64,000 bases of DNA from contig JAKADA010000003.1 of NCBI GenBank assembly GCA_021820975.1, forward strand, positions 62,001 through 126,000. The letters run 5' to 3'. Shown in pieces: positions 48,874-56,416 of this stretch. The notes under the pieces were generated by a model, which saw only the letters and a list, made by a program, of their open reading frames with translations, made no database searches and was not told the DNA's origin. The stretch's first letter is position 1, and the number at the start of each line of letters is the position of its first letter. This DNA is from Bacillota bacterium (GTDB taxonomy: Bacteria > Bacillota > Bacilli > Alicyclobacillales > SLC66). The position numbers were made by a program, and so were the translations under genes.

Positions 48874-49732
48874 TTACGTACTGTGAGTCGTCAATACAGC
48901 AACCCCATAAGATGGAAGATCCACAGATTGCGCCTCGACGTTACCGTTAAGTACATCATACAAAGAATCCGTTTCCTCTACCCAAACACCGGTAACATTG
49001 CGTAAAAGACCTGGAAATCCCCCTAGAAAACAAAGATCATGCTCATCTGCAATTCCACTTTCATGTTGTTCAAGAATCATGCCAACCTCTGTCACTTCAT
49101 GAAACACTCTTGTGTGCTCATAACCAACATGGTCCACCACGGCTCCATGAAATTTCTCCGATGATCCGCGACTTTTTCGCCACTGAAAATATTGCACTGT
49201 GTCTGCACCATGAGCAATCGCCTGCAGTGACGATAACAAATGAATCCCGGGTCGTTTTAACTTTGAAACTTCTTGCCAAGCAGGATAATTGTCCAGGGTG
49301 ATCATGATAACGTTTCGCTAACTTACTAGTAATCGCCTGAGTTTTTTCCCTGTAAGTTAGAGATGTATAGCAATGATTGTGTCGACCACCATGTAAATCT
49401 CGAACTCTATTGGCATCGACTCGCATCACTTCGGGATACTTGGCGGATAGCCATGCAGGCCGTGCACCTGATGGTGTGGCAAGAACCGCCACCATGTTAT
49501 TTTCCGCTAAACGATACATGACTTCATCGAGCCAAGCAAAATCATACTGACCTTCTTGCGGTTCCAAGCTGACCCATGAAAAGATACCAACTGACATAGT
49601 ATATACATGGGCCAATCGTGCGAGACGCATATCTTCGTCTAAAATTCCCGGCGTGTTCAGCCACTGTTCCGGATTGTAATCACCCCCATGAAGAAAATGG
49701 GGGAATTTCGTCGCTATCGGTGCAAAACGCAT
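48874..49732 (-). pseudogene. Decayed GH42 beta-galactosidase
   Basis: Remnant of a family-42 beta-galactosidase of normally about 650-690 residues. The N-terminal part is recognisable (FLHGGDYNPEQWLNTPGILD, SVGIFSWVSLEPQEGQYDF) up to LAKRYHDHPG near 49300. There the frame breaks and sequence jumps to the trimerisation region in another frame (WQEVSKLKRPGIHLLSSLQA, DTVQYFQWRKSRGSSEKFHG). A second jump leads to DEHDLCFLGGFPG, and the C-terminal part stops early. Two internal deletions have removed the catalytic region between. Not functional. Confidence 0.85.
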
Positions 49733-49780
49733 ACGGATAAACTCCCAAGAATGGATCAACAAAAACTTCCAATTAAAAGA

Positions 49781-50866: not shown

Positions 50867-51724
50867 TTATAAGGTTTCGTTAGAAAAACGATGAATGGCT
50901 GATTTCTTTTTGCTATATTGTGATCGAATATATAACTCACACTTAGGTACTGATAACGGCTTACTATAATGAAAACCTTGTATAATCCCACAGCCTCGTT
51001 CACGCAAAAACGCGACTTCAAGGTATTGCTCTACACCTTCGGCAATACAATTAAGATGCAGCTTTGCGGCAAGTTCAATCATTGATGTCACAATAATATC
51101 CTGTTTAGAATTATACAGCATCGTTTGAATGAAGGAGCGGTCGATCTTCACCGTATCAATCGGAAAGTAGCTGAGATATTGCCAAGAAGAGTAACCTGTT
51201 CCAAAGTCGTCGATGGCTAATCGCACACCTATTTCATGTAATCGATGCAAATCCTCTACCATTTTACTATTCATCTCAAAGGCTATACCTTCCGTGAGTT
51301 CAAGCTCAAGGAGATTTGGTCGCAAATTGGTATTTCGCAAAATATCTATGACAGTTTCTGTGAATGTGCTATCTTCCATTTGTTTCGCAGACAGATTAAC
51401 CGAAATATAAAAATCCGCGCCAAACTGTTTATTCCAAGCAGTTACCTGTGCACATGCAGTCTGCAGAGCGAAATGACCTAGTTGAGTAATAAGCCCGCTT
51501 TCCTCAGCTATGGGAATAAACGTGGTCGGGGCGATAAATCCATAAGTGGGATGTGCCCAACGAATAAGCGCTTCAAACCCGAGAATAGTACCCGAATTCA
51601 CATCCCATATCGGCTGATAATCCAAGGACAGTTCCTTGTACTTTAAGGCATTACGCAAGTCATTTTCCAAAGCGGCTTTACCTTTTAAGAGTGACTGTGC
51701 CTTATTCTCAAGATAATGGGTCAT
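50867..51724 (-). CDS. Stand-alone EAL-domain c-di-GMP phosphodiesterase
   Basis: From ATG 51724 (GGGGGTG upstream) 285 residues. The EAL domain appears catalytically intact: FEALIRW, SVNLSAKQ, ELTEG, AIDDFGTGYSS, VKIDRSFI, CIAEGVE and GIIQGFHYSKPL. The N-terminal 35 residues are helical (KGKAALENDLRNALKYKEL), like the linker that usually follows a GGDEF domain, so the gene may derive from a GGDEF-EAL protein. No membrane segment. It lies upstream of the peptide-signalling pair. Confidence 0.92.
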   Translation of the reverse strand: MTHYLENKAQSLLKGKAALENDLRNALKYKELSLDYQPIWDVNSGTILGFEALIRWAHPTYGFIAPTTFIPIAEESGLITQLGHFALQTACAQVTAWNKQFGADFYISVNLSAKQMEDSTFTETVIDILRNTNLRPNLLELELTEGIAFEMNSKMVEDLHRLHEIGVRLAIDDFGTGYSSWQYLSYFPIDTVKIDRSFIQTMLYNSKQDIIVTSMIELAAKLHLNCIAEGVEQYLEVAFLRERGCGIIQGFHYSKPLSVPKCELYIRSQYSKKKSAIHRFSNETL

Positions 51725-51842
51725 GTTTGCACCCCCTTCTTGAATTACAACAGCCATAAGCAATCACCTCATAGATTGAAAAATCTGATATCATCGTCAA
51801 CATATCACTCTGCTTCACCAAAGTTCATCCGCTCTACTTATA

Positions 51843-51866
51843 GGGGCCGCTAAATTGCACGGCCCC
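51843..51866 (-). terminator. Hairpin after the signal-peptide precursor gene
   Basis: Stem GGGGCCG / CGGCCCC with a 10-base loop, 12 bases past the stop of the 46-residue propeptide gene. The U-tract is weak (TATAAG). Confidence 0.5.
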
Positions 51867-51877
51867 ACAATAGTATC

Positions 51878-52018
51878 TTACAAGCTAAAAATACTAACTA
51901 CATTCGGTTCTGAGGTGTTACCAGTTGCCGACAGACCTTTTGATTGGGTGAACACAAGACTCGATGATGCGACAGCCAACACGGCAAACAAAAAAAAGCC
52001 AAGAATTATCTTTTTCAT
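51878..52018 (-). CDS. Secreted signalling propeptide (Phr/NprX-like)
   Basis: Forty-six residues, reading MKKIILGFFLFAVLAVASSS then LVFTQSKGLSATGNTSEPNV and VSIFSL. This is a classical Sec signal peptide (two lysines, hydrophobic core, small residues) followed by a short polar pro-region. An SD-like GGTGG lies eight bases before the ATG. Phr, PapR and NprX precursors have this size and plan and release a C-terminal peptide; here the tail SEPNVVS resembles the Bacillus NprX pheromone SKPDVVG. It is divergent from an RNPP-type regulator 112 bases away. The function is inferred from plan and context; the mature peptide is not known. Confidence 0.8.
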   Translation of the reverse strand: MKKIILGFFLFAVLAVASSSLVFTQSKGLSATGNTSEPNVVSIFSL

Positions 52019-52042
52019 GTACATAACCACCCTGAGCAATGT

Positions 52043-52083
52043 ATTTTATGAGGCTTGTCTATACTATACAACAATGTTACGAT
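52043..52083. promoter_or_regulatory. Overlapping divergent promoters of propeptide and regulator
   Basis: Plus strand: TTGTCT (52055-52060), 17 bases, TACGAT (52078-52083). Minus strand: TTGTAT (52066-52071), 17 bases, TAAAAT (52043-52048). The -35 elements of the two promoters interleave, so polymerase could hardly occupy both at once. Confidence 0.5.
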
Positions 52084-52100
52084 TATGATCACTAACTATA

Positions 52101-52126
52101 GGTAATTTATACTTACCAGGGGGTAA
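52101..52126. promoter_or_regulatory. GGTAA/TTACC repeat, candidate operator
   Basis: Three half-sites GGTAA (52101-52105), TTACC (52113-52117) and GGTAA (52122-52126) form two overlapping palindromes just before the regulator's ATG at 52131. The last half-site overlaps the ribosome binding site (GGGGGTAAG). This is a plausible autoregulatory site. Confidence 0.4.
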
Positions 52127-52130
52127 GTAA

Positions 52131-53348
52131 ATGTATCTCCCTTCCGATATTGGAATAAGGATCAAGCAATTACGACTTCAAATGCATCTTTCTCAAACGC
52201 AAATTGCGGGTAATGACATGACTCGTTCACTTATTAGCCAAATTGAAAACGGAAAATGTCACCCATCCATCGCGACGTTATCTCTCATTGCACAACGTTT
52301 AGGAAAACCTATCGAATATTTTTTCTCCGTCGTCAGTCACGACGCTAATGCGCTTCACCTAATCAACGATGCTACCTCAGCCTTACAAAAAGGCAATATC
52401 AAGGAGGCTGTCGATAAAGCAACTAACGCTGTGCAACTTAGTCAGTTGGGAACTGATGAATCTATTGAACCTCAAGCGAGATACATTCTAGGTGTTAGTT
52501 TGCGTAAAAATGGTGAATGGCAAAGAGCTTTTGATGAACTTGAAGAAGCCCTCGAGTTGTTCCTAGCGGCAAAAGATAAAAAGCGAATCATTGAGACGCA
52601 ATTTGAGTTGGGAAACTGCAGTTTTTATCTAGAAGAATATAAGAATGCCTCGCGATTTTATCGAAAAGTAATCCGCATGTGTAATGAACTTAAAACACTT
52701 GATCGCCTTCGCGTACGGGCCCTACTGTATTTAGGCACTGTTTACTATCGCCTAGGAGAAAATGAGAATGCGTTATCCTCTTATACCGAAGCGGAAAATT
52801 CCGCGAAAATACATAATGATCCCGATTTTATTATCGACGTCCAGATGAGCATTGGTTGGGTCCTTCATGTCCTTCACGATAACGAATTGGCCATCACAGT
52901 CACCACGAAAGCACTCCATATGACTGAGATGGGAAATAGATACCTTCGCACTGAACTTATGCAAAATCTTGGTATCATGGAGTCAGCACGAGGTAATTGG
53001 GAAACTGCCCTTTTACTTTGGAATCAATGCCTAAACGAATTCAGACAAAATAAACGCATCGTAAGAGAAGCTTCTCTATTAGCTGATATTGCCACCTACT
53101 GGGTCCATATGAAAGATTTTGATCATGCAGAAATGCTATACAATCAATCTCTTTCGCTCTTAGACTCGCAAAATAATATGCTCCTTCGCGGGATAACGTA
53201 TCGCAATCTTGGTATGTTGTATAAGCAAAAAGGCGAAAAAAAGAGCGCTGACGAATGTTTTCGCATCAGCGTCAATTTATTTCGCAACCTGGGTTCTGTT
53301 CGTGAACTAGCTACTACAATTGAGATGTGGCAAGGCGAGGAACCTTGA
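52131..53348 (+). CDS. RNPP-type HTH-TPR regulator (NprR/PlcR-like)
   Basis: Peptide-responsive transcription factor, 405 residues. The N-terminal XRE-type helix-turn-helix spans residues 5-62 (IGIRIKQLRLQMHLSQTQIA, SLISQIENGKCHPSIATLSLIAQRLG, in part). A long TPR superhelix follows from about 72 to 400, with repeats such as ARYILGVSLRKNGEWQRAFDELEEAL (in part), LYLGTVYYRLGENENAL, ELMQNLGIMESARGNWETAL and TYRNLGMLYKQKGEKKSADE. Size and plan match NprR and PlcR. It is divergent from a secreted propeptide gene, so it is probably the receptor of that peptide. ATG with AGGGGG upstream. Confidence 0.9.
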   Translation: MYLPSDIGIRIKQLRLQMHLSQTQIAGNDMTRSLISQIENGKCHPSIATLSLIAQRLGKPIEYFFSVVSHDANALHLINDATSALQKGNIKEAVDKATNAVQLSQLGTDESIEPQARYILGVSLRKNGEWQRAFDELEEALELFLAAKDKKRIIETQFELGNCSFYLEEYKNASRFYRKVIRMCNELKTLDRLRVRALLYLGTVYYRLGENENALSSYTEAENSAKIHNDPDFIIDVQMSIGWVLHVLHDNELAITVTTKALHMTEMGNRYLRTELMQNLGIMESARGNWETALLLWNQCLNEFRQNKRIVREASLLADIATYWVHMKDFDHAEMLYNQSLSLLDSQNNMLLRGITYRNLGMLYKQKGEKKSADECFRISVNLFRNLGSVRELATTIEMWQGEEP

Positions 53349-53362
53349 GACACAACCGAAAG

Positions 53363-54292
53363 TTATCCGACATGCATGGCCACCAACAACATGGTGATAA
53401 TGGCGATACTGATCAAAATCGATAATGACCCTGTCAAACTGGATAACGCAGGGTCACCATCCGATTTTTCAGTAAAAATAGGCGTCAAAATCGATAACGG
53501 AGCAAAAACTAAGATAGCTAAAACACGACGAACAGCCAGTGAAAAAGGCATAAAAAAGTAAAATAACAGAGCAAAAGCAACAGCGAATGCATAGCGGATC
53601 GATAGAGTAAGAAATACCTGACGAATATACTCAGGCTTAGCGGTCATCTCAAACATCATGCCAATCATAAGCATGGCCAAAAAAGCATTCGCATTGCCCA
53701 CCGTGGAAGATAATACGAACACCGAAGATGGCATGTGAATCTGAAAGAGAGACAAGGTAAGCATAATGATATACGTATCAAATGGCACGGATGACAGCAG
53801 CTTTTTAACACTAGCGAATACACGTGTGCGTTCTTTAGCGCCTACGATACTTGATGTGATCGCATAAGATCCACCTGTACACATGATCGAATTGCCTGCA
53901 TCAAACATGCTTGTGATAACGATACCAAATGGGCCCAAAAAACTTTGCACAAAAGGCATAGTAAATGCGCCAATATTATAGCCCGGGAAATTAAGCATAC
54001 AATACGCCTTGGTACGGTTGTCCCTCTTGCGTGCCACAACATAGCCCACGATAAGCAAAAGTACATTACACAAGAAGCCGAGAAGCACCACGCCAATAAT
54101 CGATGATTGAAAAACGAAGCTTGCAAATCCGGTAATGATCGCAGCAGGAAGCGTAATATTCATGACGATTTTTGAGACAACCGTATAACTCGTCGCTGAA
54201 AAAAAACGCACGCGTTTTAGCAAATATCCCAAAGCCATAATAAAAATAAGCGTAAATGCTTTGAGTAAAACAGGCAACATCGCGTTATCCAT
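53363..54292 (-). CDS. AEC-family transporter
   Basis: Auxin-efflux-carrier-family permease, 309 residues, about ten membrane segments. FIMALGYLLKRVRFF and ITLPAAIITGFASF in the first half, then FPGYNIGAFTMPFVQSFLG are typical. Substrates in bacteria are often malate or other organic acids. It converges on the regulator gene; possible target or just neighbour. Confidence 0.9.
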   Translation of the reverse strand: MDNAMLPVLLKAFTLIFIMALGYLLKRVRFFSATSYTVVSKIVMNITLPAAIITGFASFVFQSSIIGVVLLGFLCNVLLLIVGYVVARKRDNRTKAYCMLNFPGYNIGAFTMPFVQSFLGPFGIVITSMFDAGNSIMCTGGSYAITSSIVGAKERTRVFASVKKLLSSVPFDTYIIMLTLSLFQIHMPSSVFVLSSTVGNANAFLAMLMIGMMFEMTAKPEYIRQVFLTLSIRYAFAVAFALLFYFFMPFSLAVRRVLAILVFAPLSILTPIFTEKSDGDPALSSLTGSLSILISIAIITMLLVAMHVG

Positions 54293-55739: not shown

Positions 55740-55985
55740 TTAGAGCAAATCCCGCATTCTCTTGTACTCTTCTTCCGTAATTTCACCGCGAGCAAAACGT
55801 TCCGCTAAAAGTTCCCGTGCATTGGAACCCGGGGCGGAATTTGAGTCTTTACGTGTCGCGTGTTTGACGAGATATACTACCGTCCAGACGACGCCGACAA
55901 TGATAGCCAGTTGGACGATCATGCCGACAATACCAAAACCAAGTCCACCGTAGCCCATACCGCCATATCCAAAACCCATCATCAT
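55740..55985 (-). CDS. SHOCT-domain membrane mini-protein
   Basis: Eighty-one residues (start at one of two or three adjacent ATGs, GGAGG upstream). Gly/Met/Tyr-rich start (MGFGYGGMGYGGLGFG), one membrane helix (MIVQLAIIVGVVWTVVYLV), then a C-terminal SHOCT motif LLAERFARGEITEEEYKRMRDLL, in part. SHOCT modules are thought to mediate oligomerisation. Confidence 0.85.
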   Translation of the reverse strand: MMMGFGYGGMGYGGLGFGIVGMIVQLAIIVGVVWTVVYLVKHATRKDSNSAPGSNARELLAERFARGEITEEEYKRMRDLL

Positions 55986-56215: not shown

Positions 56216-56416
56216 ATGGGATGCTGCGGTGGTGGTGGACGTCACACGAATTACCGGGAGTTTGAAACGCGTCGTGAAGAAGATCCTTTGGAGACACTAA
56301 AGTCTCGATTGGCGAAGGGTGAAATTACGGTAGACGAATACGAAAGAACGTTGGATATATTGAACGTTAATCGTCCATCAAGGCACTTCACGGAACACGC
56401 CATGAGGGCCGAATAA
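56216..56416 (+). CDS. SHOCT-domain mini-protein, Cys/Gly-rich start
   Basis: Sixty-six residues with a strong AAAGGAGGG site. MGCCGGGGRH start (two adjacent cysteines), then SHOCT motif LKSRLAKGEITVDEYERTLDILN, in part. Soluble; may pair with the SHOCT membrane protein at 55740. It starts 49 bases downstream of the inverted-repeat element, which could influence its promoter. Confidence 0.85.
   Translation: MGCCGGGGRHTNYREFETRREEDPLETLKSRLAKGEITVDEYERTLDILNVNRPSRHFTEHAMRAE

Follow-up and report, generated by a model that had tools for sequence, protein, structure and literature searches.

Introduction

Within a 64,000-nucleotide stretch of DNA from a member of the Alicyclobacillales (the whole stretch is called the window here), a frame of 46 codons lies head-to-head with the gene of an HTH-TPR regulator. 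The locus raises the question of whether the small frame encodes a secreted peptide that is sensed by the product of its neighbor. The original prediction, made from the sequence alone, read the two genes as a peptide pheromone and its receptor of the RRNPP type and regarded them as a possibly undescribed quorum-sensing module of acidophilic spore-formers, a group in which peptide quorum sensing has been little studied.

Results

The gene pair in the window

Both frames were re-checked, and the coordinates, strands and lengths originally given for them are correct (Table 1). The regulator gene indeed lies head-to-head with the small frame, with 112 bp between the two starts. The propeptide frame translates to MKKIILGFFLFAVLAVASSSLVFTQSKGLSATGNTSEPNVVSIFSL, and the ATG at 52018 is the best placed of its possible starts with respect to the GGTGG ribosome-binding site. 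The predicted ribosome-binding site and signal-peptide features are both present, the latter comprising an n-region with KK, a hydrophobic core and an AVA/S-type cleavage site; the signal-peptide score of 15.3, obtained with a heuristic and not with SignalP, is among the highest of all frames scored. A sequence scan called no consensus σ70 promoter and no terminator at the pair. The end of the transporter gene lies 15 bp past that of the regulator gene, and there is thus no space for a peptide gene downstream of the regulator in the window.

Table 1. Features of the regulator–propeptide locus and second operator sites in g3 genomes
Feature	Position	Strand	Remarks
Candidate pheromone receptor/transcription factor, RRNPP type	52131-53348	+	405 aa; Pfam HTH_3 and TPR
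Secreted-type propeptide, candidate mature pheromone around SEPNVV	51878-52018	-	46 aa
Ribosome-binding site of the propeptide gene, GGTGG	52027-52031	-	8 nt 5' of ATG
Shared divergent promoter region	52019-52130	.	112 bp between the two start codons
ACTAAC word, candidate half-operator	52091-52096	+	Found in six of seven independent lineages of the divergent type
Perfect inverted repeat TACTTACC-AGGG-GGTAAGTA	52110-52129	.	8-bp arms; overlies the ribosome-binding site of the regulator gene
EAL-domain c-di-GMP phosphodiesterase gene, candidate output	50867-51757	-	Pfam EAL, E 2e-70
GC-rich hairpin between propeptide and EAL genes	51840-51869	-	No U-tract; z -2.6 for the 128-nt intergenic stretch
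Membrane transporter gene, convergent with the regulator gene	53363-54292	-	Ends 15 bp past the regulator gene
Second g3 operator site	L157 1501-1529 (G002)		Upstream of Peptidase_A4 (glutamic peptidase type)
Second g3 operator site	L158 1501-1529 (G015)		Upstream of Peptidase_A4 (glutamic peptidase type)
Second g3 operator site	L153 1501-1529 (G010)		Upstream of pro-kumamolisin

Fold and family of the regulator

An N-terminal HTH domain followed by a TPR superhelix, the receptor architecture typical of RRNPP(A) systems, is indicated by Pfam, by an AlphaFold2 model and by structural alignment. The model, built from the clade alignment (pLDDT 92.1), consists of the HTH domain, eight TPR-like helix pairs and a cap helix. 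VIA-align superimposed residues 66–405 on the nine-TPR fold of apo NprR (5dbk; Z 26.9, 331 residues, rmsd 4.5), TPR folds being generic; the NprR–NprX complex (4gpk) gave a Z of 25.6 and Rap proteins gave 24–27. The eukaryotic protein LGN ranks first for the regulator model (Z 31), so the fold alone is no proof of family, and the top Foldseek matches, also to LGN, were likewise treated as generic TPR similarity and discounted. A profile of the clade described below found PlcR (E 3.8e-17) and Rap (about 1e-13) among the matches listed; NprR is not among the 60 sequence-profile matches listed for it.

A search of the contigs of the window's own genome with the regulator returned a single distant TPR protein (L035). 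The same genome also holds a regulator paralog on a 5.6-kb contig (G000:C11:4199-5369, L038), whose HTH and TPR parts are separated by an in-frame TAA and next to which no peptide was found.

Secreted small frames accompany one clade of regulators

Across the order, 73 loci with HTH-TPR regulators were assembled and searched for small frames of 30–60 aa with a ribosome-binding site of at least four anti-SD matches and, by the heuristic, signal-peptide features. The density of such frames is 0.134 per kb-strand up to 350 bp from the regulators and 0.0025 in the remainder of these loci, a 54-fold enrichment; shuffles of the window region yielded 0.025 passing frames per 800 bp. In a maximum-likelihood tree of the 73 regulators, all 15 real pairs that satisfy the strict criteria fall into one clade of 21 (support 100/97), which extends over two families within a single order of acidophilic Bacilli. 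The only one of the 52 regulators outside the clade to pass, L060, is a false call whose frame overlaps the gene. The number of paired clade members rises from 15 to 17 of 21 when L032 and L034, with divergent peptides and weaker ribosome-binding sites, are included. Two further members found later (L111 and L114) are both divergent. An adjacent small propeptide gene with an export signal (as scored by the heuristic) and a receptor–peptide pairing kept across related genomes, two further features of RRNPP(A) systems, are thus both present, and the conserved pairing for which the original prediction had called is borne out.

These data bear on the reading that the small frame is a chance or degenerate relic beside an ordinary housekeeping HTH-TPR protein. 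The generic nature of TPR matches is compatible with it, but the low frequency of passing frames elsewhere in the same loci, the high signal-peptide score of the window frame and the fact that the housekeeping HTH-TPR clades among the 73 loci lack such secreted frames make it very unlikely.

Position of the peptide gene

Within the clade, 10 of the 17 pairs are divergent, and the divergent pair of the window represents a real and recurring type in acidophilic Alicyclobacillales. In the other seven the peptide gene lies downstream on the same strand. The divergent gaps measure 113 bp in the window (by the script's measure; otherwise 112), 69 bp in L005, 90 in L006, 114 in both L021 and L066, 109 in L061, 122 in L032, 123 in L034, 89 in L053 and 28 in L071. 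The sister group of the window, three species of genus g7, has the peptide gene about 123 bp after the regulator gene, which implies that the peptide gene moved between close relatives. Judged from the tree, with no formal reconstruction, the divergent arrangement looks like the older state. More distant members from the Bacilli have convergent peptides; related regulators of family f5 in the class Bacilli (L102–L110) are accompanied by a conserved convergent secreted peptide that ends in LLDLNDPVP or similar.

Sequence and selection of the peptides

No homolog of the window propeptide was found in the order beyond itself, as is expected for fast-evolving pheromones. Weak matches (E 0.006 and above) were set aside since they look like signal-peptide-type stretches of longer frames. 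A proline-centered core, xP[GND]V, recurs in peptides of the clade, SEPNVV of the window included. It reads TDPGVL, TGPGVI and TDPGVI in g3, PGPGVQ in L032 and L034, PGPGVD in L071 and L111, PDPGVG in L114 and IGPGVE in L053. Downstream-type peptides, e.g., SLPQPISP in g7, match the core less well.

The resemblance to the Bacillus pheromone NprX that was originally noted requires a correction because NprX had been quoted as SKPDVVG; the heptapeptide is SKPDIVG (PMC5641580, PMC4970707). SEPNVVS is identical to it at three of seven residues (S, P and V), a similarity that is only suggestive, although the core does recur in other members (DPGV, GPGV). NprX has an xPDIV core and the peptides of the window and the clade an xP[GND]V core.

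Selection was assessed with the three divergent peptides of g3, those of g7 being too similar for use. Values of 0.62–0.88 for pS and 0.17–0.27 for pN (ratio 0.24–0.43) demonstrate that the g3 peptides are under purifying selection. The excess of synonymous change named in the original prediction as a mark of a genuine small frame is hence seen where species pairs exist, i.e., in g3.

It is conceivable that the regulator is a peptide receptor whose ligand is encoded elsewhere and that the 46-aa frame, divergent only by coincidence, specifies a small secreted or membrane peptide of other function, e.g., in stress or antimicrobial action. No homolog of the window peptide was found in the order, receptors of the PrgX type use unlinked peptides (PMC9765709), and the g7 sister regulators pair with a downstream peptide. 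Against this stand the near-exclusive pairing in the clade with its 54-fold enrichment, the shared xP[GND]V core and the proximity of the transporter gene, next to which a downstream peptide does not fit in the window. We therefore consider a ligand from elsewhere unlikely.

Operator and candidate operator sites in the divergent regions

The divergent region of g3 contains a palindromic operator, ATTAACATGTGTTA-N7-TAACACATGTTAAT, with 14-bp arms in L021 and L061 and a 7-nt spacer; L066 retains the site with changes on both sides. When up to three mismatches are allowed, each of the three g3 genomes has exactly two sites, the second of which is located about 70–80 bp before a secreted acid-protease gene (Table 1). 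That two different acid-protease families are found under the same site argues for a real regulon.

At the outer edge of the g3 protease-promoter sites stands the word ACTAAC. Its occurrence in six independent divergent lineages, the window being one of them, is equaled by 12 shuffled sets out of 1000; as the sequences had been viewed before the word was chosen, the test takes the best word of each shuffled set to compensate. The subclade of L071, L111 and L114 has a CTCGCACGAG-like word instead (CCGCACGAG in L114). No second copy of the ACTAAC region of the window was found in its genome at up to three mismatches, and no ACTAAC site of the window type precedes the one pro-kumamolisin gene of this genome. 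Peptidase_A4 was not found in the genome, and a site before an acid-protease gene was likewise not found for the window regulator.

The inverted repeat of the window is unique in its genome at up to one mismatch. It may represent the other half of an operator, about 21 bp away from the ACTAAC half, or else form an RNA hairpin that masks the ribosome-binding site. As a regulon-wide operator it was rejected, given that neither of the two-mismatch sites (L117 and L118) lies at a promoter. Elsewhere, a third copy of the L032-type site was observed before a propeptide-like frame (L204 1524-2904, G006:C169) whose tail differs after APQDGSI and which is followed by an ABC transporter ATPase gene.

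The g3 data also bear on a toxin–antitoxin-like or immunity unit that is autoregulated, with a short hydrophobic peptide directed at the membrane of the producing cell. Such a unit would account for a short hydrophobic frame adjoining an HTH repressor-like gene. It would not account for a cleavable-type signal peptide followed by a polar, proline-containing tail of the kind that is under purifying selection in g3, for the presence of the g3 operator at protease genes, or for a TPR domain of 330 residues resembling that of NprR. Of the readings considered here, this is the most improbable.

Neighboring genes

The window and each of the three g3 species have an EAL phosphodiesterase gene next after the divergent peptide gene; the window and g3 proteins are only 28% identical. 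With 7–9 EAL genes per genome, and some 2500 genes per genome as our estimate, an EAL neighbor is expected by chance in about 0.4% of cases and in a few percent over the lineages examined. The shared neighbor in two lineages is therefore suggestive, not decisive. A search of 48–56 kb of the window against Rfam gave no match; thus there is no known c-di-GMP riboswitch before the EAL gene.

The divergent peptide gene of L005 precedes ThiF, YcaO and TfuA genes, likely a RiPP cluster (L141 2884-5967, G012), and that of L071 precedes a ThiF gene. These neighborhoods are consistent with the RRNPP_detector study, in which RRNPP candidates of the Alicyclobacillaceae lie next to biosynthetic clusters (PMC10075063).

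Two further features of the window were observed. A GH42 β-galactosidase is split over two frames (48874-49762, minus strand), one covering profile positions 1–127 and the other positions 304–375 plus the trimerization domain, so that the gene is either broken or badly assembled. Two small proteins are encoded facing apart at 55740-55985 (minus strand) and 56216-56416 (plus strand); the first has a SHOCT domain according to Pfam, and the second looks similar by eye.

Discussion

The pairing throughout the clade, the 54-fold enrichment and the NprR-like predicted fold support the reading of the locus as a peptide pheromone and its cytoplasmic receptor of the RRNPP type in a divergent arrangement, to which we assign a probability of about 0.82. 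The pair is very probably a cell-to-cell signaling circuit of a known general type. For the window we infer export, processing, import, binding of the peptide by the regulator, the sign of the regulation and the EAL output. The 46-aa propeptide would be exported by Sec and trimmed outside the cell until a short segment of its C-terminal part remains; this peptide probably contains EPNVV and would be re-imported by an oligopeptide permease. Binding of this peptide in the concave groove of the TPR superhelix would alter the action of the N-terminal HTH domain at the shared promoter region, so that the regulator would feed back on the propeptide gene. Expression of the EAL phosphodiesterase gene would most likely be altered as well, and cell density would thereby feed into the c-di-GMP level.

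The pair would work like NprR–NprX of the Bacillus cereus group, in which an HTH receptor of the nine-TPR type of about 420 aa is combined with an exported propeptide. However, nprX is located downstream of nprR on the same strand, an arrangement that is seen in the sister genus g7 and is absent from the window with its divergent peptide gene, and NprR and the window regulator are only about 11–12% identical in the structural alignment. Because of the different position of the peptide gene, the pair should not be filed as a member of the NprR subfamily. The gene nprA encodes a protease. NprR regulates nprA (PMC4970707, PMC5641580), and a parallel to this protease target is provided by the g3 relatives of the window, where the operator precedes secreted acid proteases.

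PlcR–PapR is likewise similar in that an HTH-TPR activator is paired with a short C-terminal peptide from a secreted propeptide, in line with the profile match to PlcR. Yet PlcR is the smaller protein, with five TPRs in about 285 aa; the window regulator comprises 405 aa and has eight to nine TPR-like units.

The divergent arrangement itself has a precedent. In the Rgg/SHP systems of groups I and II and in RopB/LCP the peptide gene is transcribed divergently from the receptor gene (PMC13361665), as in the window. The peptides of Rgg systems are, however, exported by PptAB or leaderless (PMC12700828), and their receptors are five-TPR proteins of Lactobacillales; the window pair, with eight to nine TPR-like units and a propeptide with a Sec-type signal peptide, differs in both respects.

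How far the module is new can be stated accordingly. The divergent arrangement does recur in acidophilic spore-formers, but the originally suggested undescribed module is not supported as wholly new, since divergent Rgg/SHP pairs (PMC13361665) and, in the RRNPP_detector study, candidates in Alicyclobacillaceae (PMC10075063) were already reported. The candidate subfamilies of the latter follow the same pair logic, and the main text of that study makes no link to EAL or acid-protease genes. Very probably, then, the general type of circuit is a known one, whereas its arrangement and group have yet to be studied.

Candidate outputs are c-di-GMP turnover in the window and acid proteases in g3. A limited literature search found no paper in which the core locus of an RRNPP system includes an EAL gene or in which acid proteases form the regulon of such a system. 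It is tempting to speculate, and we do so tentatively at somewhat less than even odds, that receptor, propeptide and EAL genes make up a three-gene core module in two genera, tying a quorum signal to c-di-GMP breakdown, with the acid proteases as further targets in g3.

The shift in the position of the peptide gene among close relatives bears on the evolution of such pairs. For work on acidophilic spore-formers the clade supplies a defined operator, receptor/peptide pairs that can be tested and two candidate outputs, acid proteases and a c-di-GMP phosphodiesterase. It also extends the range of groups open to tests of co-evolution between RRNPP peptides and receptors.
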